DNA of 64,000 bases from Anaerolineales bacterium (GTDB taxonomy: Bacteria; Chloroflexota; Anaerolineae; Anaerolineales; UBA11579). A program made the position numbers and the translations under genes. Below the pieces are notes generated by a model, which saw nothing but the letters and a program-made list of their open reading frames with translations, was not told where the DNA came from and did no database searches. Below, piece by piece: positions 5,866-22,448 of this stretch (position 1 is its first letter; every line of letters starts with the position of its first letter). The DNA lies in NCBI GenBank assembly GCA_025808555.1, contig CP075526.1, forward strand, positions 372,001-436,000, read 5' to 3'.

Positions 5866-6228
5866 ATGGTCACCCGTTACGCCATCTTCGGCCTCACCAT
5901 CCTGCTAGGCCTGATCGCCAGCCTTTATCTGGGCTGGGAGCTGCGTCCGCTGTCTGCGGCCGACGCTGACCCCAGTCTGCTGCGCGAGGACTACGCCGCC
6001 GATTACGCGTTGATGGCCGCCGAAGCCTATGCCGCTGACGGTAGCCTGAGCCGCGCTATGGAGCACTTGGAGCTCCTGAATGCTGACAATGCTCTGCTCC
6101 CTCTGGTAGCCGCGATGGAATTCGGGCAGGAGCATGGCTACTCCCAGGCTGACCTCAACCTGCTCGCCAACCTGGCCGGCGCCCTGCGCGACCAGGTGCC
6201 CAGCCTCTCCCATACGCCCACCCCATGA
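5866..6228 (+). CDS. Hypothetical one-TM protein, paired with the next gene
   Basis: A 120-aa protein with an N-terminal membrane anchor (YAIFGLTILLGLIASLYLGW) and a soluble helical domain with DYALMAAEAYAADGSLSRAM. I chose ATG 5866; the frame extends 19 codons further to 5809 but the anchor starts right after 5866. The stop codon overlaps the next start (ATGA). The next protein has the same layout and a related stretch (QYRLMIALAYASSGDISRAQ), so the two look like tandem paralogues. The helical region resembles a short TPR-like hairpin. Function is unknown. Confidence 0.65.
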   Translation: MVTRYAIFGLTILLGLIASLYLGWELRPLSAADADPSLLREDYAADYALMAAEAYAADGSLSRAMEHLELLNADNALLPLVAAMEFGQEHGYSQADLNLLANLAGALRDQVPSLSHTPTP

Positions 6229-7001
6229 TGACCAAAGAGCCGGCCAAGCGGCCGCCGCTGTATCTGCTGACTGGCCTGGTGATCGGCCTCCTCCTCGGCT
6301 GCATACTGTCCTTCATCGCCTTCCCGTTGCAGGTTGCCAGTGTTGGGCCCAGCCACCTGGCGGAGGAACATCAAGACCAGTATCGCCTGATGATCGCATT
6401 GGCGTACGCCTCCAGCGGCGACATCAGCCGGGCGCAGGCGCGCCTGGCCCAGCTGGGCGATGCGGACCCTGCCCGAGCGCTCAGCGCCCAGGCGCAGCTG
6501 GCGTTGGGCAACAGCGCCACGCAGCGCGAGGCGCGTGCGCTGGCCAGCCTGGCCCGTGACCTTGATACCTTCCAGGCCAGCGCCCAGTCCACCTCGGTCG
6601 CCATCCACACGCCTAATCCAGACGATGTGGATGCCGCCCCGACGCCCTTCGTAGCCGATGAGGGCGGCGTGTACACGCTCAGCAGCCGCGAACTACTGTG
6701 CGAAAGCAGCGAGGCACCGCCGCTGGTCAAACTATTCATCTTCGATGAGAACGGGCAAGCCCAGGCTGGTGTTCGCATCGCAATGCACGATGGCGAAGAG
6801 AGCAGTGAATTCTTCACTGGCGCCCGCCCCGAATTCGGGCCGGGCTATGCCGAATACGAAATGACCCCAGGGAACACGTACATTCTCTCGATCGCAGGCA
6901 CCGAAACGCTGGCGGGCTTGCAGCCAGCCGCCTGCATCACCGATGCCGGCGACCCCGCCTGGGGCGCCTGGCTGCTGCTGTTCAACCGCGCCAAGCCATA
7001 G
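6225..7001 (+). CDS. Hypothetical membrane-anchored protein with helical and C-terminal beta domain
   Basis: A 258-aa protein. A membrane anchor (about 12-34) is followed by a helical region (48-125) with QYRLMIALAYASSGDISRAQ, akin to the preceding gene. An acidic, Pro-rich linker leads to a C-terminal domain (about 145-255) resembling a carboxypeptidase-regulatory or Ig-like fold: LVKLFIFDENGQAQAGVRI and a conserved-looking GPGYAEYEMTPGNTYILSI. It starts in a 4-nt overlap with the upstream gene, so they are translationally coupled. The outer domain would face the cell exterior. No function can be named. Confidence 0.68.
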   Translation: MMTKEPAKRPPLYLLTGLVIGLLLGCILSFIAFPLQVASVGPSHLAEEHQDQYRLMIALAYASSGDISRAQARLAQLGDADPARALSAQAQLALGNSATQREARALASLARDLDTFQASAQSTSVAIHTPNPDDVDAAPTPFVADEGGVYTLSSRELLCESSEAPPLVKLFIFDENGQAQAGVRIAMHDGEESSEFFTGARPEFGPGYAEYEMTPGNTYILSIAGTETLAGLQPAACITDAGDPAWGAWLLLFNRAKP

Positions 7002-7078
7002 TACTCCCTGCCTATACAATCGAATAAGGCGGGGGATAGAATTCTCCAGCATTTTCTTCCGGAGTCAGGGGAAGTTCT

Positions 7079-8701
7079 TTGACTCGGCATGCTATGAAAA
7101 AAAGCACGTCTGATACGCTGTCCAAACCATCACGTACAGTTTGGCTGCTGCTCGCTTGCAGTGCGCTGTATTTTGTCCTGCTGATCTTCCCCAACGCCAC
7201 CGGCGCCCAAACCCCCGACATGCTGTCCATCTTTGAAGTGGACGAGTATGCGCAATATGAACATGCTGTGCGCATGGCCGGCGGTGGAGGAACCTTTGCG
7301 GATGGGCTGCGCAAGTTTGTGGCCTACCAACATTATCACTACGGTTATCCTTTTTATCTTCTCTCGGGCCTGAGTCTGCTTCCGCTGCGTTTGGCGGCTG
7401 GCGGTCAATGGGCTGAGCAAACTCAGCTAATTGTTCTAATATTGCGCCAATTTGTCAGCGTGCTGCCCAATCTGATCAGCATCTGGTTGCTTACTTATAC
7501 AGCCACCGAATTCAGGTCAAGGGTGAGAACCATTGTTGTCTTCACCCTCTTGCTTTTGCTTCCCGGCTTGTTAGGCAACAGCCTGTGGTGGCATCCTGAT
7601 GGCGCGGGTTTACTACTCATCTCGCTGGTTTTTTTCTTCTTGCGGCTTGACCGATTTAAGTTTGGCAGGTTCTTTTGGCTTTCTGCAATCGCGGCGGGAC
7701 TGGCCCTTGGAGTCAAGTTCCTGGGTGCACTGTTCGTTCTTGTTATCCCCACATATCTGATCCTTGGCACGCAAATGGCAACTCAAAGTTTGAAGCAGGC
7801 CACCTTGCGAGCGATAGGCTTCGTTGCGCTGATGCTGGCTACCTTTGTAGTCAGCAACCCTGTATTGCTATTCGCAGCCGAGCGCGGCGAATTCATTCTG
7901 CGTCAGCAGATCATTCTTCGCGAAGCCAGCGAGGGTATCTTTGTCAGCCAGCCTGATTTCTTTCAAGATGGGAGGTTGCCAACCTGGCTAACCGAGAATT
8001 TTGGCACTGGGCTATTCCTGCTGCTACTTGCCATCTCCCTGATTATTGGACTTTACAAAAAAGATACACGGACCCAAGCGTTGCTACTTACTGCCTGGAT
8101 ATTTCCCAACCTGGCAGCTGTCCTGCGCGCCTCATCCTTCCGCACCCACTATTGGCTACCGTTAATGATGCCCGTTATCACCGCGTTGGTATTTGTTCTC
8201 CCCGAACGTCTAAACCATCTAGCCCGAAGGCCACTGGCCGCCAGGAAGCTTTTGCAGTGGGCCGCGCTGGCGCTGCTTTTAGTACAAGCCGGGCTGTTCC
8301 TAAGACAGGATGTACGGCAATATACTCACACGCTGCAGCGTGAAGATACCTCGCCCAGCCTGCAGTTCTATCGCAGCGTTCAGCCCATGCTGGCTGGCGA
8401 AGCGCCTGTTGTCGTCTACCGGGATTGGAAGGTCTACTTCCCTAACCAAGCTGGCATATCTGTTTTCATGGATTGGGATTTGGCTAGTCATGACATGCTC
8501 AACAGCGAGCAGCCGAATGTGCTACTGCTGGAGCGTGAGAACGTAGAAGCATACGGGGCGGCTGACTATCTTGACAGCGCCCCCGACCCTGACCGCCTGC
8601 GCGGCATGCACCTGTTCTACCGGGGTGCGCTGCTGGACGAAATCCCTGGCTATGAACTAGTATACGAAGATGGCTTTGGGCTGATGTTCGTGCGGCAGTA
8701 G
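7079..8701 (+). CDS. Glycosyltransferase family 39-like polytopic membrane protein
   Basis: A 540-aa integral membrane protein with roughly ten hydrophobic segments and a soluble C-terminal part. After the first membrane helix comes SIFEVDEYAQYEHAVRM, which places Asp/Glu in the first outer loop as in GT39/ArnT-type mannosyl or arabinosyl transferases that use polyprenyl-phosphate sugars. FRTHYWLPLMMPVI is a typical late helix. The start is either TTG 7079 or ATG 7094; a GGAGTCAGGGG stretch at 7061-7071 could serve either. The gene is clearly less GC-rich than its neighbours, hinting at transfer. The exact sugar and acceptor are unknown. Confidence 0.65.
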   Translation: MTRHAMKKSTSDTLSKPSRTVWLLLACSALYFVLLIFPNATGAQTPDMLSIFEVDEYAQYEHAVRMAGGGGTFADGLRKFVAYQHYHYGYPFYLLSGLSLLPLRLAAGGQWAEQTQLIVLILRQFVSVLPNLISIWLLTYTATEFRSRVRTIVVFTLLLLLPGLLGNSLWWHPDGAGLLLISLVFFFLRLDRFKFGRFFWLSAIAAGLALGVKFLGALFVLVIPTYLILGTQMATQSLKQATLRAIGFVALMLATFVVSNPVLLFAAERGEFILRQQIILREASEGIFVSQPDFFQDGRLPTWLTENFGTGLFLLLLAISLIIGLYKKDTRTQALLLTAWIFPNLAAVLRASSFRTHYWLPLMMPVITALVFVLPERLNHLARRPLAARKLLQWAALALLLVQAGLFLRQDVRQYTHTLQREDTSPSLQFYRSVQPMLAGEAPVVVYRDWKVYFPNQAGISVFMDWDLASHDMLNSEQPNVLLLERENVEAYGAADYLDSAPDPDRLRGMHLFYRGALLDEIPGYELVYEDGFGLMFVRQ

Positions 8702-8705
8702 CCCC

Positions 8706-11498
8706 CTAGCCCACCACGTCCATCTGGCCCCAGTTCTTGCCGACCTTCACTTCGGTCTGCAGAGGCACGCTTAGCTGGTAGGCCTTGCTCATCTCGTCGC
8801 GCACCAGCGCGGCTGTCTTGTCCAGTTCCGCCTCAGGCACTTCCAGCACCAGCTCATCGTGAACTTGCAACAGCATTCGCCCGCCCAGCTTGGCCTTGGG
8901 GAGGGCAGCATCTACGCGCAGCATGGCCAGCTTCATGATGTCAGCCGCAGTGCCTTGAATGGGGCTGTTGATCGCTTCGCGCTCCAGGCGGCTCTTGAGC
9001 ACATAGTTGGTGCCCTCTTTCAGCGCCTGGAACTGGCGCCGGCGGCCCAGCAGGGTTTCGATATAGCCCAGCTCGGCCGCTTTCTTCTTCGTACTATCAA
9101 TGTATGCACGTACACCGGGGAACTTCTCAAAGTACGCCTTGACAAAGTTCTCGGCCTCGGCCAAGGTCAGATCCGTGCTACGGGTAAGTCCAAAAGGGCT
9201 CATGCCATAGATCAAGCCAAAGTTCACAGCTTTGGCGTTGCGGCGTTGCTCACCGGTCACCTTGTCAGGCGCAATGCCCAGGATCGCCGCGGCCGTAGTA
9301 ATGTGAATGTCCTCATTGTTGCGGAAGGCGCTCAACATCGCTTCGTCCTGGGCAATGTGCGCCACAATGCGCAGCTCGACTTGAGAATAGTCCACCGCAA
9401 GCAGTTTGTGCCCAGAGGCTGCGATAAAGGCGCGCCGCACGCGGCGCCCCAGCTCAGTGCGGATGGGGATGTTTTGCAGGTTTGGTTCGCTGGAGGCAAT
9501 GCGCCCGGTCACTGTACCCGCCTGGTTGTACGAGGTATGTATTCGGTTGGTTGCCGGGTTCACCTCCAACGGCAGCGCATCCACGTAGGTGGTCTTCAGC
9601 TTGGAGAGTTCGCGATGGTCGAGGATCAGGTCCACGATCGGGTGCTGCTCGCTCATCGCTTCCAGAATGTCCGCCGAGGTTGAATATGCGCCCGAGGCGG
9701 TTTTGCGCACGCCGGGCGGAGGCGGCAGCTTGAGGCGATCGAACAACATATGAGCCAACTGCTGGGGCGAGCTGAGATTGAACTCCTCGCCTACTTGCTG
9801 ATACACCTCTGTGCCGATGCGCTCTAAGTCCTTATTGAGCTCGGCGCCCATGCCGGCCAAAAACTTTGTGTCCAGCATGATGCCCGTCATCTCCATATCA
9901 GAGAGTACGCGTACCAGCGGCATTTCGATCTGGTCAAAGATTTGCTCACCCCTGACGGCCTTCATGCGTTCGGTTAGCACGGGTTGCAGGCGCAGCACCA
10001 CTTCGGCATCCGCGGCGGCATATTCGGCCGCCTGCTGGATCGGCACCTGGGCCATGGTGATCTGCTTGCGACCCTTGCCCAGCAGATCCTGAATTTCGGT
10101 CATCTCATTGTTCAGGCGTACCCACACCAGGCCTTTGAGGCCGAGATTGCGTGAGCCGCTGTCGGCCACCCATTCGGCGATCATGCTGTCCATGCTGAGT
10201 GGCTGCACACGCAGGCCATGCCGGGCCAACACCACGTAATCAAAACTTAGGTTGTGGCCAAACTTGGGGATCTTGGGGTCGGTCAGCGGGCCTTGCAGGG
10301 CAGCCACTACCTCCTCAATGGGAAGCTGGGAGCCGAGTATGCGTTCGTGTCCGATCGGAATGTAATAGCCCTTACCCTCCTCCACTGAGAACGAGATGCC
10401 CACCAGGTCACATTGCATGTGGTTGGTGCTGCTGGTCTCAGTATCAAAGGAGATGTACTTGGCGGCGGCCAGCGTTTTGGCCAGCGCAGCCAGTGCCTCG
10501 GGCGTATCCACGACCTCTACGTCAATATCCACCGCCGGGCCACGCGGGGTCGGGTTCTCTTCGGGGAACATGCCCAGCTGGCCCAGCTTGGTGTCCTGGG
10601 GCATGTTGCCCAGCTCCAGCACGGTATTGAGCCGCTTCATCAGCGAGCGGAACTCAAGCTGGCGAAACAACTCGAGAACATCCTGAGACTTGATGTGATC
10701 GGTGCGCGCCTGTTGGATGTGAAAGTCTATATCGAGGTCAGTGACAATACGCGAAAGCTCAAGGCTCAGATCCGCTTTCTCGCGCCCGTCCTCGAACTTC
10801 TGGCGTTGGGAAGGCTTGAGCTTATCGAGATTGGCGTAAATGTTCTCCAGCGTCTTGTACTCCGCCAGCAAGCCAGCCGCGGTCTTCTCGCCAATGCCGG
10901 GGATGCCGGGGATGTTGTCAGATTTGTCGCCGATCATGGCCTTGAAGTCCACCACCTGCTCCGGCATCACTCCCAGGAATTCAAAGACATCCTGCGGCGC
11001 ATAATCTTTGCCGTCAGCCAACTGCTTGCCAGGCAGACTGACAATGATGCGCTTGTCAACAAGCTGCAGCAGGTCTTTATCCCCGGTAATGATCTTGACG
11101 CCCACTCCTTCGCCGGCCACCTTCTTGGCGATGCTGCCAATGACATCATCGGCCTCGAAACCTTCAAGCTCCAGGCGCGGAAAGTTGAACGCATCCACCA
11201 TCTCGCGGATACGCTCCATCTGCACGCGCAGATCATCCGGCATTTTTTCGCGGGTGGCCTTGTAGTCGGGGTAACGCTTATCGCGGAAGGTTTTGCCTAC
11301 ATCGAAGGCAACTGCCATGTATTCGGGGCGCTCCTGCTCCAGGATGCGCAGCAGCACCGAAGTGAAACCAAACACGCCGGCAGTGGGCTCGCCAGCGCTG
11401 GTGGTCCAGCGGCTGCTACCCGCTCCCGCGCTGGTGAGCGCAAAGTAGGTGCGGTAGGCCAGAGCATGGCCATCAATAAGATATAGCGTTTGGGGCAT
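8706..11498 (-). CDS. polA: DNA polymerase I
   Basis: Fills gaps in repair and removes Okazaki primers. At 930 aa it has all three domains. The N-terminal 5'-3' FEN nuclease (about 1-290) has LIDGHALAYRTYF and GDKSDNIPGIPGIGEKTA. The 3'-5' exonuclease keeps its Asp/Glu pair in SFDTETSS, so proofreading is probably active. The polymerase domain has motif A DYSQVELRIVAHIAQDE, motif B RRNAKAVNFGLIYG and motif C VHDELVLE. I placed the start at ATG 11498 (MPQTLYLIDG) instead of the 26-codon longer frame. A TACAAT box lies 6 nt upstream of the ATG and no Shine-Dalgarno is seen. Confidence 0.97.
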   Translation of the reverse strand: MPQTLYLIDGHALAYRTYFALTSAGAGSSRWTTSAGEPTAGVFGFTSVLLRILEQERPEYMAVAFDVGKTFRDKRYPDYKATREKMPDDLRVQMERIREMVDAFNFPRLELEGFEADDVIGSIAKKVAGEGVGVKIITGDKDLLQLVDKRIIVSLPGKQLADGKDYAPQDVFEFLGVMPEQVVDFKAMIGDKSDNIPGIPGIGEKTAAGLLAEYKTLENIYANLDKLKPSQRQKFEDGREKADLSLELSRIVTDLDIDFHIQQARTDHIKSQDVLELFRQLEFRSLMKRLNTVLELGNMPQDTKLGQLGMFPEENPTPRGPAVDIDVEVVDTPEALAALAKTLAAAKYISFDTETSSTNHMQCDLVGISFSVEEGKGYYIPIGHERILGSQLPIEEVVAALQGPLTDPKIPKFGHNLSFDYVVLARHGLRVQPLSMDSMIAEWVADSGSRNLGLKGLVWVRLNNEMTEIQDLLGKGRKQITMAQVPIQQAAEYAAADAEVVLRLQPVLTERMKAVRGEQIFDQIEMPLVRVLSDMEMTGIMLDTKFLAGMGAELNKDLERIGTEVYQQVGEEFNLSSPQQLAHMLFDRLKLPPPPGVRKTASGAYSTSADILEAMSEQHPIVDLILDHRELSKLKTTYVDALPLEVNPATNRIHTSYNQAGTVTGRIASSEPNLQNIPIRTELGRRVRRAFIAASGHKLLAVDYSQVELRIVAHIAQDEAMLSAFRNNEDIHITTAAAILGIAPDKVTGEQRRNAKAVNFGLIYGMSPFGLTRSTDLTLAEAENFVKAYFEKFPGVRAYIDSTKKKAAELGYIETLLGRRRQFQALKEGTNYVLKSRLEREAINSPIQGTAADIMKLAMLRVDAALPKAKLGGRMLLQVHDELVLEVPEAELDKTAALVRDEMSKAYQLSVPLQTEVKVGKNWGQMDVVG

Positions 11499-14368: not shown

Positions 14369-14593
14369 CTAGCGGCGCGTAGTGCGCTTGGCGGTCTTTT
14401 TGGCCGCCTTCTTGGCAGTCTTCTTGGCTACCTTCTTGGGGGCGGTTTTCTTTGCCGGTTTGGCGGATTTCAGGATCTCATAATCCGCCTTCAGGTTCTT
14501 GACCCGCAGCGGGAAGCTGGCAAGGTGCAAGGCGATCGCCCCGAAAGTGACGGCGAAGCCCAGGATCATGTAGTTGGTTGTTTCGATCGGCAT
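14369..14593 (-). CDS. ccmD: CcmD-like small membrane protein with Lys/Ala-rich tail
   Basis: A 74-aa protein, last in the ccm operon, which is the expected place and size of CcmD, the small helper that binds CcmC and CcmE. One membrane helix spans residues 8-28 (YMILGFAVTFGAIALHLA), followed by a short amphipathic stretch (VKNLKADYEILK) as in CcmD. Residues 43-74 form a strongly basic AKK/APKK-type tail like that of histone H1, which ordinary CcmD lacks. The start ATG 14593 replaces a longer frame that overlaps ccmC. The assignment rests on position and topology. Confidence 0.7.
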   Translation of the reverse strand: MPIETTNYMILGFAVTFGAIALHLASFPLRVKNLKADYEILKSAKPAKKTAPKKVAKKTAKKAAKKTAKRTTRR

Positions 14594-14613
14594 GTCTCTC
14601 ACTTGCTCCCGGC

Positions 14614-15333
14614 CTAGCGGCCCAGCGCCTTCATGCGCAGTTCTTCCACTTTGTCGGCCAGCCAGCCCAGGCGCACGCGGTGCCACAACAGGGTCAACGT
14701 GAACACGGTCAGGGCCAGCAGGGTGAACAGCAGGGTCCACACCATGGGGCGGGTCATATCGAAGCCGCCCTCAGCCGTGGCGCTGCCGCTGCCGATCACC
14801 ACGGGATGCAGCGTGCGCCAGATGCGAATGGAGAAGAAAGTCAGCGGGACAGTGAACGCAGCCAGGATGGCGTAGATGGCGCCAAAACGGGCACGGCGCT
14901 GCGGGTCATCAATGCCCTGGCGCAGCAGCATATAGGCCATATAGACCAGGATGAGGATGGTGAAGGTGACCACGCGCGGGTCCCAGGTCCACCATGTATT
15001 CCAGGCCGGGCGGGCCCAGATGGAGCCGGTGGTGACGCAGATGAAAGCGAACACCAAGCCGATCTCCACACAGGCCACAGACAGCACGTCCCACTTCTTG
15101 TGCGGGCGCAGCAGATAGATGATTCCGGCCACGGCGGCAATAATGAGCACCACCATGGTTACCCAGCCGCTGGAAGCGTGAAAATAAAACACACGCTGCA
15201 CATTGCCCATCACGCGCTCCATGGGCGCATAGAAGAAAACTATGTAGATGCTGCCCGCCATAAGCAGCGCTGAAAGAACATCCAGCACGCCCAACAAGCG
15301 GGGTTTGGGGTCTAGCGAAGTTGATGATGCCAT
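14614..15333 (-). CDS. ccmC: Heme exporter / cytochrome c biogenesis protein CcmC
   Basis: A 239-aa protein with six predicted membrane helices that passes heme to CcmE. The periplasmic tryptophan-rich WWD-type motif is visible as NTWWTWDPRVV. The conserved external His residues lie in VFYFHASSGWV and in the loop before the sixth helix (WRTLHPVVI). It lies between ccmB and the ccmD-like gene, with 6 nt to ccmB, in one operon. Confidence 0.93.
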   Translation of the reverse strand: MASSTSLDPKPRLLGVLDVLSALLMAGSIYIVFFYAPMERVMGNVQRVFYFHASSGWVTMVVLIIAAVAGIIYLLRPHKKWDVLSVACVEIGLVFAFICVTTGSIWARPAWNTWWTWDPRVVTFTILILVYMAYMLLRQGIDDPQRRARFGAIYAILAAFTVPLTFFSIRIWRTLHPVVIGSGSATAEGGFDMTRPMVWTLLFTLLALTVFTLTLLWHRVRLGWLADKVEELRMKALGR

Positions 15334-15339
15334 TGAAGC

Positions 15340-16014
15340 TTACTCCTCTACGATGAAGTCAAAGAACATAAAGCCCAACGCGGGCATGATGAGACCATAC
15401 ACAACCAGAATGTTGAGGCTGGAGAGGGCGTATTCCATACCCAGGCCGTTGATGAAGGCGCTGCTGGCCCGTACCGAGGCCACCAGCACCGGCAGCACCA
15501 CGGGGAACAACAGCACCGGCAGCAGCAATTCACGGCTGCGGGCCTGGGCCGCCATGGCGGCCAGAAGCGTGCCTGCAGTGCAAAAGCACCACGAACCCAG
15601 CACCAGCACCAGCCACAAACCCGGCTGTGCCAGGCTCATGTTGTAGAACACAGCATAAAGCGGGAGGGTGAAAATTTCCACAACCAGCATGAAGAATAAG
15701 TTCGCAAGGGTTTTGCCAAAGTAAATGGCGCTACGCTCAACCGGGGCCAACAGCAGGCCGTCCAGCGAGCCGCGCTCACCTTCAGTGGCCAGGGTGCGGT
15801 TGAGCCCCAGCGTGCCGGCAAAGGCGAAAGTGGTCCACAGCACGCCAGCGGCGATCTGGCGGCGGGTGAGCATGTCGATATCCAGCGTGAACGCAAAAAT
15901 AAAGATGACCAGCACCACGAACACCAGCATGGCGCTCACCATTTGGCGGCTGCGCCACTCGGCGGCCAGGTCTTTGCGCATGATGGCCCACACGGCTGTG
16001 AAGTAGTTAGCCAT
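15340..16014 (-). CDS. ccmB: Heme exporter protein CcmB (ABC permease)
   Basis: A 224-aa, six-helix membrane subunit of the CcmAB ATPase that releases holo-CcmE. Its N-terminus (AIMRKDLAAEWRSRQMVSAML) and the central GERGSLDGLLLAPVERSAIY match the family. It overlaps the end of ccmA by 8 nt, so the two are translationally coupled. The length is usual. Confidence 0.93.
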   Translation of the reverse strand: MANYFTAVWAIMRKDLAAEWRSRQMVSAMLVFVVLVIFIFAFTLDIDMLTRRQIAAGVLWTTFAFAGTLGLNRTLATEGERGSLDGLLLAPVERSAIYFGKTLANLFFMLVVEIFTLPLYAVFYNMSLAQPGLWLVLVLGSWCFCTAGTLLAAMAAQARSRELLLPVLLFPVVLPVLVASVRASSAFINGLGMEYALSSLNILVVYGLIMPALGFMFFDFIVEE

Positions 16015-16711
16015 TGGCGCGCTCCAGAGCCTGCTGATAGTGCGCAGGCAGCCTGGCGCCCAGCTTGGCCTTGGCCAGCGTGCCGGCGTTGCGGCCAGCG
16101 GCCAGCAGCACGGCGCGCTGCGTCAGGCCGCCCACCCTATCGAGATCATGGCTGGCGATCAGCACCGTGGCGCCGGCCCGTGCCTGGGCGCGCAGCACAT
16201 CGTCCAGCGCATCGGCAGTTTGCAAGTCGAGAGCGCTGTGCGGCTCGTCGAGCAGGAGGACGCGCGGGCGATGCAGCAGCGCCCGCGCCAGCGCAAGGCG
16301 CTGCAACATCCCGCGCGAATAACCACGCACCGGCTCGCGGCGGCGTTCCAGCAAGCCCACCAGCTCCAACAGTTCATCGATGCGGGCAGCCGCGGCTGAC
16401 ACAGCGTACAGGCGGGCAAAGAAGTCCAAATTCTGGTCAGCGGTCAGGTCCTCATACAGCAGCGGCTGGTGGCCCAGATAGCCCAGCTGGGCGCGGGCTG
16501 CAGCTGCCTGCTTAGGCAGCTGGCAGCCAGCCACCTGGACGCGGCCAGTCGTTGGCTGAGCCAGCCCAGCCAGCACGCGCAGCAGGGTACTTTTGCCGGC
16601 CCCGTTGGGGCCAAGCAAGGCCACCAGCTCGCCCTTGCGCACGCGCAAATTCACGCCGTGTAAAGCCAGGCGGTATCCATAACGCTTGCTGAGCTGGCTG
16701 ACAGTGATCAT
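16007..16711 (-). CDS. ccmA: Heme ABC exporter ATP-binding protein CcmA
   Basis: A 234-aa ABC ATPase. Walker A is GPNGAGKST (about 35-43). The signature is YSRGMLQRLALARAL, a variant of LSGGQ typical for CcmA. Walker B is VLLLDEPHSALD. It pairs with CcmB to drive heme transfer from CcmC/D to apocytochrome through CcmE. It overlaps the upstream cytochrome gene by 4 nt and ccmB by 8 nt. Confidence 0.93.
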   Translation of the reverse strand: MITVSQLSKRYGYRLALHGVNLRVRKGELVALLGPNGAGKSTLLRVLAGLAQPTTGRVQVAGCQLPKQAAAARAQLGYLGHQPLLYEDLTADQNLDFFARLYAVSAAAARIDELLELVGLLERRREPVRGYSRGMLQRLALARALLHRPRVLLLDEPHSALDLQTADALDDVLRAQARAGATVLIASHDLDRVGGLTQRAVLLAAGRNAGTLAKAKLGARLPAHYQQALERANG

Positions 16712-18414
16712 CGGTCCTTCATCATACGGCGCAGCTGGGCCTTGAGGGCGGCGCGCTGGCGCGTGTATTGGTTCTGGGAAACATCGCCAGCCTCAAAGCG
16801 CGCATCAAGTCGGGCGATGCGGGCCAGCACTTCGTCCGGCCCGGCTTGCATGCGGCGCAGCCACAGCCAAGTGAAGCCAACCGCCAGCGTGAGTCCAGCC
16901 AGCCCCACCACCACGCCGTCGTTGGCCAGCAAGGCTTGCCAGCCACCGCCGCCTTGCGGGTTGGGCCCGCGCAGCTGCAGTTCAGCGGTGTCACCCGCAG
17001 AATAGGCCTGGCTAGAGAGGTAAGCCCGATAGGAGGCATCCTGGATCTGCTGTTCGCCCGCTTTGGTGAAATCAGCATTGGCCAAAGTCACGCCGCCGTG
17101 TTGAACCAGCACAGCAACCGAGCGCACGGGCAGGTTAAGCGCCAGCGGCAGGTCCAGGCTGCGCGTGTACGGCATCTCATAGGCAAACAAGAGTTGGTAG
17201 GTCTGCAAACCGGGCAACACAGCGCGCAGATCGCCAAAACCGTTCTGGGTCGGCAGGTAGCGCTCGCGGAACACGCCCTCATTAAAGGCCAGGTCGCCCG
17301 CGCCCTCCGGCAGGTCATATAGCAGCACTGGCGCGCCTTCTTGCGTAGGCGTAACGGCGCGCGTGCCAATGTTGGAGACGAGATACTGCTGCACCACGCG
17401 CACAAAGCCCGGGCGCTCGAATTCCAGGATCAGGGTCAGACGCTCAACTGCCAGCTGGCTGGTATCGGATGTTGTTTCGTAAATGATGATAGGCTGGCTG
17501 AACTCAGTCTGGCCCTCATTCAAAAATTCGGAGAAATAGCTGAGCCCCAGATAGTCCACCGCGGCAAAGAAAGTGCGCCCCTCGGCTACAGGCACTTCGT
17601 CAAAGGCAAAGCGCCCATTGGCGCCCACTGTGGCGGTCTGGCTGTGTACCAAAGTCTGGCCCTCGTAGCCAAACAGGGTCACTTGCAGGCCAGGCGCCAG
17701 TTCACCATCCGTGCCATCTTGAACGCGACCGCTGAACGCACCAATAGCGGCGGGCTCATCCCCGCCGGCTGGCGCCTGCGGCTCAGCGCCCAATGAGATG
17801 GCCTGCACATACGAGCCCAGCGCCAGCAGTTCCGCTGAGGCCAGGCTGGGCGCCGCCTGTTCGATGGCGCCGATAATGTCGTTGCGGCTGTAAGCCGCCA
17901 TCTGACGGATATCGGCCAGCGGCAACGCGGCTTCGATCGCCTCCTGATGGCGAGCAAAGAGTTGCTCGCCGCCTTCCGCCGCCAACGGATCCTGACTCAG
18001 CGAGAATGTATAGGCCAGCACATCCCAGCGCTGCTGCAGACTGAGCTGGCTGGCGAACGGCGGCATGAAATTATCCAGATTGCCCTGGGTAATGATCTGG
18101 TACCACTCGGCCGGGCTGGCGGCATCCGCTCGCTCGGCTACGCCGAGTGGGGCGGGCTGCACGGGCAGCATGTTGGCCTGGCCGCCATCGCCCAGGCCTG
18201 TGGCGCCGTGGCACGGCGCACAGCTCTGGGCGTAGATGGCCGCGCCCGCAGTAATGTCTGCCGGCGCGGGCGGGTACTCCAGCGGAACGGGGGTCGAGTC
18301 GACGCCGCTGATGATCGCATTCGGCGGCGGGGTCACGTCGCCGGCCAGCGAGAATTCGCAGGCGGTCAGCAGCAAGGCCAGCAACGGCAGCCAGCGCAGC
18401 AAACGGGTGCTCAT
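16708..18414 (-). CDS. Membrane-anchored cytochrome c lipoprotein inside the ccm operon
   Basis: A 568-aa protein. A lipoprotein signal ends in LLTAC (C19). A class I cytochrome c domain follows (about 50-140) with CAPCH (65-69) as the only heme site and NFMPPF supplying the likely axial Met. Next are a helical segment, a beta domain (about 225-300) like a carboxypeptidase-regulatory fold, and another beta-rich region. Near the C-terminus is a membrane helix (VVVGLAGLTLAVGFTWLWL) and a short SHOCT-like helical tail. It overlaps its neighbours at both ends. It is probably a client of the operon and an electron carrier on the outer face of the membrane; its partner is unknown. Confidence 0.75.
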   Translation of the reverse strand: MSTRLLRWLPLLALLLTACEFSLAGDVTPPPNAIISGVDSTPVPLEYPPAPADITAGAAIYAQSCAPCHGATGLGDGGQANMLPVQPAPLGVAERADAASPAEWYQIITQGNLDNFMPPFASQLSLQQRWDVLAYTFSLSQDPLAAEGGEQLFARHQEAIEAALPLADIRQMAAYSRNDIIGAIEQAAPSLASAELLALGSYVQAISLGAEPQAPAGGDEPAAIGAFSGRVQDGTDGELAPGLQVTLFGYEGQTLVHSQTATVGANGRFAFDEVPVAEGRTFFAAVDYLGLSYFSEFLNEGQTEFSQPIIIYETTSDTSQLAVERLTLILEFERPGFVRVVQQYLVSNIGTRAVTPTQEGAPVLLYDLPEGAGDLAFNEGVFRERYLPTQNGFGDLRAVLPGLQTYQLLFAYEMPYTRSLDLPLALNLPVRSVAVLVQHGGVTLANADFTKAGEQQIQDASYRAYLSSQAYSAGDTAELQLRGPNPQGGGGWQALLANDGVVVGLAGLTLAVGFTWLWLRRMQAGPDEVLARIARLDARFEAGDVSQNQYTRQRAALKAQLRRMMKDR

Positions 18415-18797
18415 TACTTGCGCCGCGCCCCCTTGCGGGGTGCATTCTTCTTGCTTTGCTTATTTTTATAGGCGGCGATCATGGCCTCAAGCTCATCGCG
18501 TTCAGGCTTGGCCGATGCGGGTAACTCAATATTGGCTTTCTCCAAGGCGCGCAGAGCCGCCGCACCCTCCGCTAGCAATTGGCGGCGCTGTGGATGATAG
18601 ATCTCCTCCGGCACTTTGCCCAATTCCCAATCGGCGTCCAGCTCCAGCAGCGCATCCAGCACACGCTGGTGCTCGGCTTGCAGGTTGGCCAGTTGCGGGT
18701 TCAAGTCCTCATCGGCATCTGCCAGCAGCGGGCGGGCGACGTACAGCCCACACAATACCAACAAGGCAACGAACAGGAGCAGCGAACCAAGATCCAT
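18414..18797 (-). CDS. CcmI-like small membrane protein
   Basis: A 127-aa protein with one N-terminal membrane helix (residues 4-22), then a coiled helical domain with LQAEHQRVLDALLELDADWELGKVPEE. The HQRVLDALLELDADWELGKV-type pattern resembles the N-terminal part of CcmI (heme lyase helper), which also has one helix followed by a coiled coil, but the TPR half is absent. The C-terminus is basic (KKNAPRKGARRK). It overlaps ccmG and the cytochrome gene by 1 nt each. Its role in the heme lyase complex is inferred from position. Confidence 0.6.
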   Translation of the reverse strand: MDLGSLLLFVALLVLCGLYVARPLLADADEDLNPQLANLQAEHQRVLDALLELDADWELGKVPEEIYHPQRRQLLAEGAAALRALEKANIELPASAKPERDELEAMIAAYKNKQSKKNAPRKGARRK

Positions 18798-19342
18798 CAG
18801 TCGATCTCAAGCAGGCGGTCAACCACAGTCATGATCTCTTCAACGGATTGGTACGGCCCGATCTTGACCGAGGCGATCTCGCCCAGTTTGTTGATCACAA
18901 ATGTCTCCGGCACGCCGCGGGCGCGGAAACTGGTGTAGATGGTGGTGCCCAGGTCAGGCCCGTTGGGATACGTGACGCCGTGTTCCTCAATGAACGCCAG
19001 CGATTCTTTCTCGGTGTCCACATAGGCCACGCCGAGGAAGAGCACATCGCCGCGGTCCTGATAGTGCTGCCAGGCCTGCTCCAGGTGAGCGGCCTCTTCT
19101 TTGCAAGGCAGGCACCACGAGGCCCAGATGTTGAGCACTACTACTTTGCCCTCAATGTCTTCCGGGCCAATGGTCTGGCCGTCAAAGGTGGTTAGCGTAA
19201 AGTCTGGCGCCTGCTCACCACGCGTCAGCACACCCTGCAGGGAGGACTGCAACTGCGCCCCCACCAAGGCCAGCAACGCGATCAGCAGACCCCAGGCCAG
19301 CACACGGCCCAGGAGGGAGGTTGGCTTTTTGTCTTCGCTCAT
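18797..19342 (-). CDS. ccmG: Thiol-disulfide reductase CcmG/TlpA-like
   Basis: A 181-aa membrane-tethered thioredoxin-fold protein. A membrane anchor (about 11-30) precedes the redoxin domain with APDFTLTTFDG and the active site WASWCLPC (C77, C80). GVPETFVINKLG holds the cis-Pro region. It reduces the heme-binding cysteines of apocytochromes. It shares one base with ccmH on one side and with the CcmI-like gene on the other, typical of tightly coupled translation. Confidence 0.9.
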   Translation of the reverse strand: MSEDKKPTSLLGRVLAWGLLIALLALVGAQLQSSLQGVLTRGEQAPDFTLTTFDGQTIGPEDIEGKVVVLNIWASWCLPCKEEAAHLEQAWQHYQDRGDVLFLGVAYVDTEKESLAFIEEHGVTYPNGPDLGTTIYTSFRARGVPETFVINKLGEIASVKIGPYQSVEEIMTVVDRLLEID

Positions 19343-19815
19343 CAGCGGCGCGCCTTAAGTTCTTCTTCCAGCTGGCGGGTGTATTCATCATCTTTGCTGG
19401 GCTTGGCTGCACTGGGCGCCGCCTGCTGCCAGCGGCGCAGGTTGCGCCCCAGCAGCAGCGCCGCGCCCAGGATCACTGCCGGCGGCAGCAGGTACACCAG
19501 CCAATTGAGCCCACGCGCCGGCGGCACGGCAAGCACGCCTTGTCCATAGTGGGCGGCAAAGTAGTCATACACCTGCTGTTCGCTATAGCCATCGGCCAAC
19601 AGGTCAGCAATCTGGCCGCGCCACTGGGCGCAGGCGGCCGTGCCGCACACATCCAGCGGCACGTTGGCGCACACCGGGCAATACAGGTTCTTGGCTACAG
19701 CGTTGACTTGGTCAGCGCTGGGAGTCCCCTGTAGCGCAGAGTTCAAGGCGGCCGGGCTGCCGGCGCAAGCGGCCAGCAGCAGGACGGCGGCAACGGCAAA
19801 TGCCAGCAACCTCAT
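19342..19815 (-). CDS. ccmH: Cytochrome c-type biogenesis protein CcmH, lipoprotein form
   Basis: A 157-aa protein. A lipoprotein signal ends LLLAAC (C17). The CcmH domain has YCPVC (C46, C49), then QIADLLADGYSEQQVYDYFA and HYGQGVLAVPPARG, followed by one membrane helix (about 108-125) and a polar tail. Two further cysteines (LDVCGTAACAQW, C57 and C62) are unusual; the standard family has only the CxxC pair. It overlaps ccmF by 4 nt and ccmG by 1 nt. It forms part of the heme lyase or thioreduction step. Confidence 0.87.
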   Translation of the reverse strand: MRLLAFAVAAVLLLAACAGSPAALNSALQGTPSADQVNAVAKNLYCPVCANVPLDVCGTAACAQWRGQIADLLADGYSEQQVYDYFAAHYGQGVLAVPPARGLNWLVYLLPPAVILGAALLLGRNLRRWQQAAPSAAKPSKDDEYTRQLEEELKARR

Positions 19816-21905
19816 GCACGCTCCGCTGTGCCGCGCACTCGGGCACGGCTGCGGGCGGGCTGCAACTCAGCGTCGGGCCACGAGGCGACCAGCGTGCCAA
19901 AGATGAACACAAACCCGCCCAGCCAGATCCAGTTCACCAGTGGGTTGACATACATCTTGAATGTGGCGCTGCTGGCGCTCACCGGCTCCCAGTCGACCAG
20001 CAGAATGTAGACATCATCCTCCAGCGTGCTACGCAGACCGGGGATGGTCATGGCTTGCTGCGACTCGTAATAAAAATCGCGGCGCGGGTACAGCTGGGTC
20101 AGCGGTTGGCCGTCCTTGAACACATTCACCACGGCGCGGTCCACCAGGCGGCCGTCTGGCGTTTCAAACTCAGCCAGCGACTCGTACTCAATGCTGTAGC
20201 TGCCCAGATGCATGCGTTCGCCCACCGCCAGGCTGCCCTGCGTTTCCTGCTGGAACAGCTCAATGCCAATGATGCCCACCGCGATCAGGATGACGCCAAT
20301 GTGAATGATGTAGCCGCCATAGCGGCGGCGGTTGCGGGCCACCAGGCGCCAGAAAGCCTGCAGCGGAGTCTCGCCGCGGCTGGTGCGCGCCCGGGCGCCG
20401 CGCAGAAACTCATAGGCGGTAACCAGGAACACGAAGGCGCAGATCCATAATGCCAACAGCGCCAGCGGCTGGCGCATGCCGCCAGCAAGCAAGGCGGCCA
20501 GGGCCAGCAGCGAAATGATGAATGGCTTCCACATGGCGCGGCCCAGTGTACGCGCCGTAGAAGCACGCCAAGCCGAAAGCGGCGCAATGCCCATCAGCAG
20601 CAGCAAGGCCGCCCACAGCGGGCCAGTGGCGCTCTCGTAGAAGATGGGGCCAACCGTGGCGCGCTGGCCGGTGAAGATGTGTGCCAGGGCGGGGATGGCG
20701 CGGCCAATGCCCCCGCTGGCTTCGCTGACAATGGGGAACACGACACCCCAGAAGCAGATGACCAAGATGCCCATGAAGAGCAAGTTGTTTACAAGGAAGA
20801 GCGCCTCACGTGAGAGCAGCGAGGTCATCTCCACTTCAGACTTGAGCGTAGCCCAGCGTTTGTTCAGCAGTGCCAGCGAGACGGCGAAGGTGACCGCGAT
20901 GAAACCAAAGAACATTGGCCCAATCGCGCTCTGCGCAAAGGCATGCACCGAAGACAACACGCCGGAGCGCGTGAGGAAGGTGCCGAAGATCACCAGGCAA
21001 TAGGTCAGGATGATGAGCAGCATGTTCCAATGCTTGAACATGCCGCGCTTTTCCTGGATCATGACTGAATGCAAAAAGGCCGTGCCAGTGAGCCAGGGCA
21101 TGAACGCGGCGATCTCCACCGGATCCCAACCCCAGTAGCCGCCCCAGCCCAGCACATCATAGGCCCAGCGGCTGCCGAGGATGAGGCCCAACGAGAGGAA
21201 CAGCCAGGCCACCAGCGTCCAACGGCGCGTCACGCGGATCCAGCGGTCATCGCTGCGCCCGGTGACCAGGGCGCCGATGGCAAAAGCGAATGGCACCACG
21301 AAAGCCACAAAGCCGATATACAGCATGGGCGGGTGAATGATCATGCCCGGATGGCGCAGGAGCGGATTGAGTCCATTGCCATCCATGGGAATGTAGGGCT
21401 GCGCCCCGGCGGGCTGCCACAGCGCAGCCCACACCGTGCCAGTCACGCCCTGCCAATATCGCAGGAAGGGATTTTCAAAGAAGAGGATTAGCGCCAGGAA
21501 GAACGCCAGCGTACCAGCAGTGACGATAATGACCCACGGCTCCAGATCGCGGTCACGCCGCCATTCGCGCAACATCACCGCAAAAGTGAAGGCCGCCATC
21601 AGCCAGGCCCAGAACAGCAGCGAGCCGGCCTGCCCGCCCCACAGCGCGGTGACGCGCAGGTACATGGGCATGCTGTGGCTGGTGACCTGGGTGACGTACT
21701 GCAGGTGAAAGTCTAGATTGGCCAGCGAATACACCAGGCTGCCACACGCCAGTGTCAGCAGGGGAAAGCTGAGGATGGTGGCGGAGCGGGCGCTGGATAC
21801 CCAGCGCTGCTGGCCGCTCCAGCTGCCAAAGGCAGCCGCGGCGCACGCATACAGCGCCAGCAGAAAAGCCATCAGTAGCGCAAAGAAACCAAAGTCTGCG
21901 ATCAT
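19812..21905 (-). CDS. ccmF: Heme lyase CcmF
   Basis: A 697-aa polytopic membrane protein, about 15 helices, of the heme-handling protein family. The tryptophan-rich WWD motif reads GWGGYWGWDPVEIAAF. Conserved periplasmic His residues are in RHPGMIIHPPMLYIGF and near SSVHAFAQSAIGP. The C-terminal periplasmic region has the usual beta part (SYSIEYESLAEF). It ligates heme to apocytochrome c. It follows ccmE by 15 nt and overlaps ccmH. Confidence 0.95.
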   Translation of the reverse strand: MIADFGFFALLMAFLLALYACAAAAFGSWSGQQRWVSSARSATILSFPLLTLACGSLVYSLANLDFHLQYVTQVTSHSMPMYLRVTALWGGQAGSLLFWAWLMAAFTFAVMLREWRRDRDLEPWVIIVTAGTLAFFLALILFFENPFLRYWQGVTGTVWAALWQPAGAQPYIPMDGNGLNPLLRHPGMIIHPPMLYIGFVAFVVPFAFAIGALVTGRSDDRWIRVTRRWTLVAWLFLSLGLILGSRWAYDVLGWGGYWGWDPVEIAAFMPWLTGTAFLHSVMIQEKRGMFKHWNMLLIILTYCLVIFGTFLTRSGVLSSVHAFAQSAIGPMFFGFIAVTFAVSLALLNKRWATLKSEVEMTSLLSREALFLVNNLLFMGILVICFWGVVFPIVSEASGGIGRAIPALAHIFTGQRATVGPIFYESATGPLWAALLLLMGIAPLSAWRASTARTLGRAMWKPFIISLLALAALLAGGMRQPLALLALWICAFVFLVTAYEFLRGARARTSRGETPLQAFWRLVARNRRRYGGYIIHIGVILIAVGIIGIELFQQETQGSLAVGERMHLGSYSIEYESLAEFETPDGRLVDRAVVNVFKDGQPLTQLYPRRDFYYESQQAMTIPGLRSTLEDDVYILLVDWEPVSASSATFKMYVNPLVNWIWLGGFVFIFGTLVASWPDAELQPARSRARVRGTAERA

Positions 21906-21920
21906 TGTGAGATGCAGGGG

Positions 21921-22448
21921 CTAGTAGTCGCCGGCCTGGCCGGGAAGCGCCTCTTCGTAGCGGGTCGGGCAGCGCAGCAGCAAGCCGTTCTCGTCGGCGT
22001 AGAACACGCCGTCTTCGCCCAGCTTGCCGGCCACGATGGCTTCCACCTCGTGGGCCAGCAGATCAGGCTTGACGCCAATGTACTGCACCTGCAGGCGGGT
22101 ACGCGTGGGGTCATTCACGGCTTGGTTCAGGGCTTTGGCTAGGCCGCCGTCATCATTGATCAGCCGCGTATCGGCGGGCATATGCACCATGGTGAAGGTG
22201 AGGGTCAGGGTGGCGGGGTCGTATTCGATAGTGTCGCCCAGCACCGCCCCTGCCACGCGGGCCGGTTTGCCCACGGCTTCGGAGCCGCGCTCATTCAGTT
22301 CGTCGATCGTGAAGAAAAATTGCGCTCCTGCGGCAGTGGATGTGATGATGAGGTAGACCACCGCGGCCAGGATCAGCAGGCCGCCAATAATGAACTTCTT
22401 GTTTCCGAGACCGGTGGGCAGGGGTTGGGCAAGGCTTGTGCTGCTCAT
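21921..22448 (-). CDS. ccmE: Heme chaperone CcmE, CxxxY variant
   Basis: A 175-aa protein: a cytosolic N-terminus, one membrane helix (FIIGGLLILAAVVYLIIT) and an OB-fold domain (about 50-165). The place where E. coli CcmE has its covalent heme-binding HxxxY carries CPTRY (C160, Y164) in LLLRCPTRYEEALPG. This CxxxY form is known from Desulfovibrio and archaea. It is the first gene of the operon. ATG 22448 is preferred to TTG 22454. A TATAAT lies 25 nt further upstream, giving a short leader. Confidence 0.9.
   Translation of the reverse strand: MSSTSLAQPLPTGLGNKKFIIGGLLILAAVVYLIITSTAAGAQFFFTIDELNERGSEAVGKPARVAGAVLGDTIEYDPATLTLTFTMVHMPADTRLINDDGGLAKALNQAVNDPTRTRLQVQYIGVKPDLLAHEVEAIVAGKLGEDGVFYADENGLLLRCPTRYEEALPGQAGDY

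Follow-up and report, generated by a model that had tools for sequence, protein, structure and literature searches.

We analysed a stretch of DNA of 64,000 nucleotides (the window), which belongs to a genome of 2.24 Mb in one contig. Its host, an uncultured bacterium, falls with Anaerolineales in Chloroflexota. The window carries a ccm operon with the following genes and features.

21921..22448, minus strand: ccmE, Cys-type heme chaperone (ATG start, 175 amino acids; Pfam CcmE PF03100, 2e-17)
21957..21971, minus strand: CPTRY motif, codons C160 to Y164
19812..21905, minus strand: ccmF, heme lyase (Pfam CcmF_C, 1.8e-47; Cytochrom_C_asm, 5.4e-38; WWD-type motif WGGYWGWD)
19342..19815, minus strand: ccmH, with four loop cysteines C46, C49, C57 and C62 (PF03918, 1.4e-22)
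18797..19342, minus strand: ccmG-type thioredoxin-like protein with WCLPC (Pfam AhpC-TSA, 3.6e-22; Redoxin, 4.7e-16)
18414..18797, minus strand: short CcmI-N-like protein of 127 amino acids without the TPR part, named by its position and its Bacillota counterpart
16708..18414, minus strand: protein of 568 amino acids, a cytochrome c domain (Pfam Cytochrome_CBB3, 1.4e-13) with an unannotated C-terminal membrane protein
16840..17529, minus strand: unannotated "domain Y" inside the 568-amino-acid protein
16007..16711, minus strand: ccmA, ATPase (ABC_tran, 2.7e-34)
15340..16014, minus strand: ccmB (Pfam CcmB, 4.8e-32)
14614..15333, minus strand: ccmC (Cytochrom_C_asm, 2.6e-29; WNTWWTWD motif)
14369..14599, minus strand: small membrane ORF starting 14 bases after ccmC, CcmD-like by place and size only (no Pfam match)

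The operon runs in the order ccmE-F-H-G, the CcmI-like gene, the cytochrome c fusion, ccmA-B-C and the CcmD-like ORF, with spacings of -8 to +15 bases between genes. All five of the System I proteins CcmA, B, C, E and F are found in the window by Pfam, and the tryptophan-rich WWD motif is present in both CcmF and CcmC. The NCBIfam models for CcmE, CcmF, the CcmG-like redoxin (ResA/DsbE) and NrfF (CcmH-like) match only below their cut-offs. The original prediction had described a CcmE with a CPTRY heme site, in one operon with ccmG and with a ccmH that has extra cysteines; the Pfam matches, the tight spacing and the presence of C57 and C62 besides C46 and C49 bear out this description. The genome contains one CcmE, a CcdA-like gene (genome positions 1882913-1883551) and five matches to the CBB3-type cytochrome c domain, and there is no match to ResB (System II) in it. 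With CcmE, CcdA and cytochrome c domains present and ResB missing, System I is the sole recognised route in this genome.

The window CcmE has a single cysteine, C160 (codon 21969-21971), with Y164 (codon 21957-21959) four residues further on, both located in LLLRCPTRYEEA. A profile built from 19 Cys-type CcmE proteins matches the solved structures 8ce8_E, 1sr3, 1j6q and 2kct. In the profile alignments, the C160 column falls on the histidine of the E. coli CcmE motif (8ce8_E, 1.7e-18; 1sr3, 4.6e-16), and in 2kct it falls on that protein's cysteine (6e-13). Modelled with AlphaFold2 (pLDDT 86.3), the window CcmE adopts an OB barrel, and C160 lies immediately behind the last barrel strand (residues 149-159). 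This model can be superposed on 1j6q (Z 11.1, rmsd 2.5, 95 aligned) and on 8ce8_E (Z 10.7, rmsd 3.8, 126 aligned), although many unrelated OB folds score equally. As far as the model can tell, C160 is not away from the heme surface, the outcome named as refuting the original prediction, but at the place that the heme ligand takes in solved CcmE. Anaerolineales CcmE proteins also have about 25 extra residues inserted between two strands of the barrel, which the model folds into helices 94-99 and 103-112. Cysteine and tyrosine occupy the C160 and Y164 columns in all 41 Anaerolineales stretches, which were gathered by the Pfam CcmE model and not by the motif. The pattern is therefore more than chance, given the alignment to the ligand histidine and the 2kct cysteine and its recurrence in these 41 stretches. 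Together, alignment and model indicate that C160 is the predicted counterpart of the heme-binding position of the solved CcmE structures, and published work on other Cys-type systems suggests that heme would be bound there covalently.

A cysteine at the heme-binding position of CcmE, as found in the window, is the mark of System I*. Absence of CcmH and CcmG belonged to the first description of System I* but is no longer defining, and the window has both proteins. With System I* of Desulfovibrio and archaea the window has the CcmABCEF core in common, whereas the tested Desulfovibrio operon lacks both CcmG and CcmH. The archaeal Ccm system of Methanosarcina acetivorans likewise has a CxxxY CcmE, and C120 of this motif is required for heme attachment according to PMC9084895; where the window has CcmH, a CcmI-like protein and a CcmD-like ORF, that system has no CcmH, CcmD or CcmI, and its CcmF is split. 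Canonical System I (E. coli, Rhodobacter) comprises the whole set ccmA-H; CcmG and CcmH are among them, as in the window, and the folds are the same. Compared with it, the window has a cysteine for the histidine in CcmE, a four-Cys CcmH, a CcmI-like protein without TPR and the extra cytochrome c/domain Y protein. Stevens 2011 (PMC3601427) reports Cys-type CcmE in Chloroflexi, CcmH in roughly one in three bacterial System I* genomes and covalent heme binding by the Desulfovibrio Cys-CcmE, and CcmG is entered in its System I* table as either missing or undetected. In the open-licence literature we found no paper on a Cys-CcmE/CcmH system in Anaerolineae; apart from PMC3601427, the hits were, judged by title, on tailings, thermokarst lakes or an unrelated subject. 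The core finding is therefore an instance of a state already reported, largely in 2011. The four-Cys CcmH and domain Y are the more interesting points, and domain Y may be new.

In a sample of 400 Chloroflexota genomes, CcmE was found in 265, CcmH in 199 and both in 194, so that CcmH is present in 194 of the 265 CcmE-bearing genomes. Among the CcmE-bearing genomes of this sample, CcmH is found in 30 of 33 from the same order as the host and in 17 of 17 other members of the class. To type CcmE, we used 120 stretches fetched around CcmE together with the window. The resulting 122 CcmE proteins comprise 75 CxxxY, 30 CxxxF, 13 HxxxY and 4 HxxxF (105 Cys-type and 17 His-type). The CcmE proteins of L097, L127 and L168, and the second one of L137, each represent a second copy in the respective genome; the two ccmE genes of L137 are adjacent (7167-7628 and 7632-8069), with the motifs CPSKY and CPHSY. 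CcmH lies in the same stretch as CcmE in 65 Cys-type and 16 His-type regions. By genome, counting only genomes inside the 400-genome sample, CcmH is found in 34/49 CxxxY, 23/29 CxxxF, 13/13 HxxxY and 4/4 HxxxF entries; 57 of the 78 typed Cys-type genome entries have CcmH and 21 have no CcmH match. Within Anaerolineales, 33 of the 41 Pfam-gathered stretches have CcmH, as do 69 of 80 named loci (order-mates that include Thermanaerothrix daxensis and Anaerolinea thermolimosa), 64 of which have CcmG as well. Eight of the 11 named loci without CcmH have less than 4.5 kb of sequence after ccmE. The 80 named loci were picked by the Cys motif and carry no evidence on the invariance of C160 and Y164, so that all motif counts come from the Pfam-based sets. 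These co-occurrence counts across Chloroflexota indicate that the window has the kind of system usual in Anaerolineales and not a one-off hybrid. Cys-type CcmE together with CcmGH is thus common, which was the outcome named as counting against the original prediction. The "mixed System I variant" that it proposed is real in combining a Cys-type CcmE with CcmG and CcmH, but the combination is not unusual; it is normal for Anaerolineales and had been reported before. Its claim to novelty falls with the precedent in PMC3601427 and with the majority of Cys-type genome entries that have CcmH.

On the CcmF tree (FastTree, 71 rows), the window lies among the Anaerolineales rows, all of which are CxxxY, and the His-type HxxxY rows form a separate clade. 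The HxxxF rows are nested among Cys-type rows, and no fewer than three changes are required to explain the C/H state. This nesting suggests a possible return from cysteine to histidine in the HxxxF CcmE operons (L178, L187, L190 and L175). A deep separate clade is formed by the CcmF proteins of families f26, f36, f62 and f65 (L314-L321); these loci have divergent CxxxY CcmE proteins, in genomes without a Pfam CcmH match.

The window CcmH has the loop C46-P-V-C49 followed by C57 and C62 (spacing CPVC-x7-C-x4-C, codons within 19630-19680), and a further cysteine at residue 17. Its model (pLDDT 87.6) retains the CcmH fold (2hl7, Z 9.3, rmsd 2.6, 67 aligned). The Pfam match, the 2hl7 match and C46/C49 agree with the three-helix periplasmic domain and its LRCxxC-type loop, to which two cysteines are added; the four cysteines are modelled in and just past the loop joining helices 34-41 and 60-74. 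Neither the four cysteines nor W65 and R66 vary across 38 sequences, which come from the window and from 37 named Anaerolineales loci, and the four-Cys form is present in all 33 CcmH proteins found among the 41 Anaerolineales stretches. C57 and C62 are probably structural or redox-active because they are conserved. The four cysteines could instead bind metal in a treble-clef-like CPxC...C...C arrangement rather than form redox pairs. The spacing is consistent with this, as are the short strands in the modelled loop and the helix that starts at residue 60 beside C57 and C62. We nevertheless regard metal binding as doubtful: the first cysteine pair occupies the place of the redox CXXC of canonical CcmH, and the Bacillota CcmH beside Cys-type CcmE retains, as judged by eye, only the cysteines near positions 2 and 3. 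CcmH proteins beside Cys-type CcmE in other groups show differing patterns (e.g., CQCGC...), and the plain two-Cys CcmH is the usual form in CxxxF and HxxxY operons. In raw counts, 41 of 41 four-Cys CcmH adjoin a Cys-type CcmE and 16 of 16 CcmH beside a His-type CcmE are two-Cys; the CcmH of L156, blank in the alignment, was scored as two-Cys from its motif. We make no claim of a coupling between the two states, as the four-Cys state changes only twice on the CcmF tree and an independent-pairs test is unable to reach significance on it.

Our main reading, to which we give a probability of roughly 90%, is that the window encodes a full System I with a Cys-type CcmE (System I*) in which the thiol-reducing arm is kept. 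CcmABCD would export heme and load it onto C160 of CcmE, probably via a thioether. CcmF, through its WWD motif, would then accept the heme and join it to apocytochromes at their CXXCH, for example to the cytochrome that the operon itself encodes, and CcdA, CcmG (CLPC) and CcmH would keep the apocytochrome cysteines reduced. Which genes are present and in what order, where C160 lies, the folds of CcmE and CcmH, the CcdA and cytochrome genes, the absence of ResB and the conservation in Anaerolineales are all observed. The covalent heme on the cysteine, the direction in which heme moves and the functions of CcmG and CcmH are proposed by analogy with published work on other Cys-type systems. CcmG and CcmH may even be non-essential here, since PMC3601427 and PMC9084895 describe experimentally tested Cys-type systems (Desulfovibrio, Methanosarcina) that function without CcmH, and deletion of ccmG and ccdA in Methanosarcina was without effect (PMC9084895). 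The same studies, and the Cys-type genome entries without CcmH, would fit a system in which CcmABCEF alone attaches heme, as in Methanosarcina, and CcmG and CcmH are leftovers or work in a different thiol pathway. This is unlikely for the window, where ccmH and ccmG abut or overlap their neighbour genes, and the invariance of the four loop cysteines, W65 and R66 also argues against it. Still less probable, to the point of being very improbable, is a recent hybrid in which a Cys-type ccmE was transferred into a His-type operon with ccmG and ccmH. The variation of CcmE types within the phylum would allow such a transfer, but the constant cysteine and tyrosine in the 41 Anaerolineales stretches, most of them with CcmH, and the position of the window on the CcmF tree, apart from the HxxxY rows, speak against it. 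In Anaerolineales, a Cys-type CcmE normally comes together with the complete CcmG/CcmH arm, and replacement of the need for CcmH by a cysteine chaperone is therefore not general. An order that mostly has CcmH, with some members that lack it (G200, G290 and G311), and the HxxxF rows among Cys-type rows offer a natural test series for the Cys/His choice and for the contributions of CcmH.

The 127-amino-acid CcmI-like protein has no Pfam or NCBIfam match, and no TPR domain, the apocytochrome-binding part of CcmI, is found in it by Pfam. Its Bacillota counterpart (L323:8937-9284) gives a weak match to TIGR03142 (CcmI). In the neighboring 568-amino-acid protein, CAPCH is located at residue 65 of the cytochrome c domain, and beyond this domain no Pfam or NCBIfam family matches above cut-off. 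Domain Y matches no solved structure with E < 0.5. Its model covers the middle part only, as a model including the tail also drew CcmI-like proteins, and genomes were searched with a profile of 31 members. In raw counts uncorrected for kinship, 174 of the 400 Chloroflexota genomes have domain Y, and CcmH is present in 169 of these; where CcmE and CcmH occur together, 165 of 194 genomes have domain Y, vs. 4 of 71 CcmE genomes without CcmH. In the window, L334, L336, L338 and L339, domain Y has the CcmI-like gene on one side and ccmA on the other, and it is fused to the cytochrome c domain in Anaerolineae. Twelve extra stretches have domain Y away from the first-fetched ccmE, or a CcmE that is missing or untyped; in six of them no other ccm gene is near domain Y, save single ABC or thioredoxin matches. 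Within the fetched stretches, domain Y is present in 58/104 Cys-type vs. 1/17 His-type cases, and genome-wide in 35/49 CxxxY, 22/29 CxxxF, 1/13 HxxxY and 4/4 HxxxF genomes. Its use as a marker of Cys-type operons was rejected on account of the HxxxF genomes; domain Y tracks CcmH and the operon lineage, not the CcmE residue.

The CcmI-like proteins of HxxxY operons have TPR matches in three of the four scanned, mostly below cut-off, and domain Y is rare in HxxxY genomes, which suggests that domain Y may replace the TPR part of CcmI. Domain Y is a candidate new Ccm component and gives a concrete new gene for testing. Tentatively, and at somewhat less than even odds, the Ccm machinery of Chloroflexota, and that of two or more Bacillota plasmids, would have a rebuilt apocytochrome arm, made of a short TPR-less CcmI, an undescribed beta-rich membrane Y protein and CcmH (four-Cys in Anaerolineae), in which the Y protein presents the apocytochrome to CcmF/H instead of the TPR part of CcmI. 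Domain Y is also encoded on two Bacillota plasmids with a CPSKY CcmE. The plasmids of Cytobacillus firmus (L323) and Metabacillus (L324) carry ccm operons (5995-8924) with a CPSKY CcmE and a CcmH that lacks the first cysteine of CXXC. Three further CcmI-like proteins (L178:2914-4131, L190:753-2129 and L167:9651-11045) have matches to BNR/YCF48-like repeats, not TPR, and the one in L167 has a zinc ribbon.
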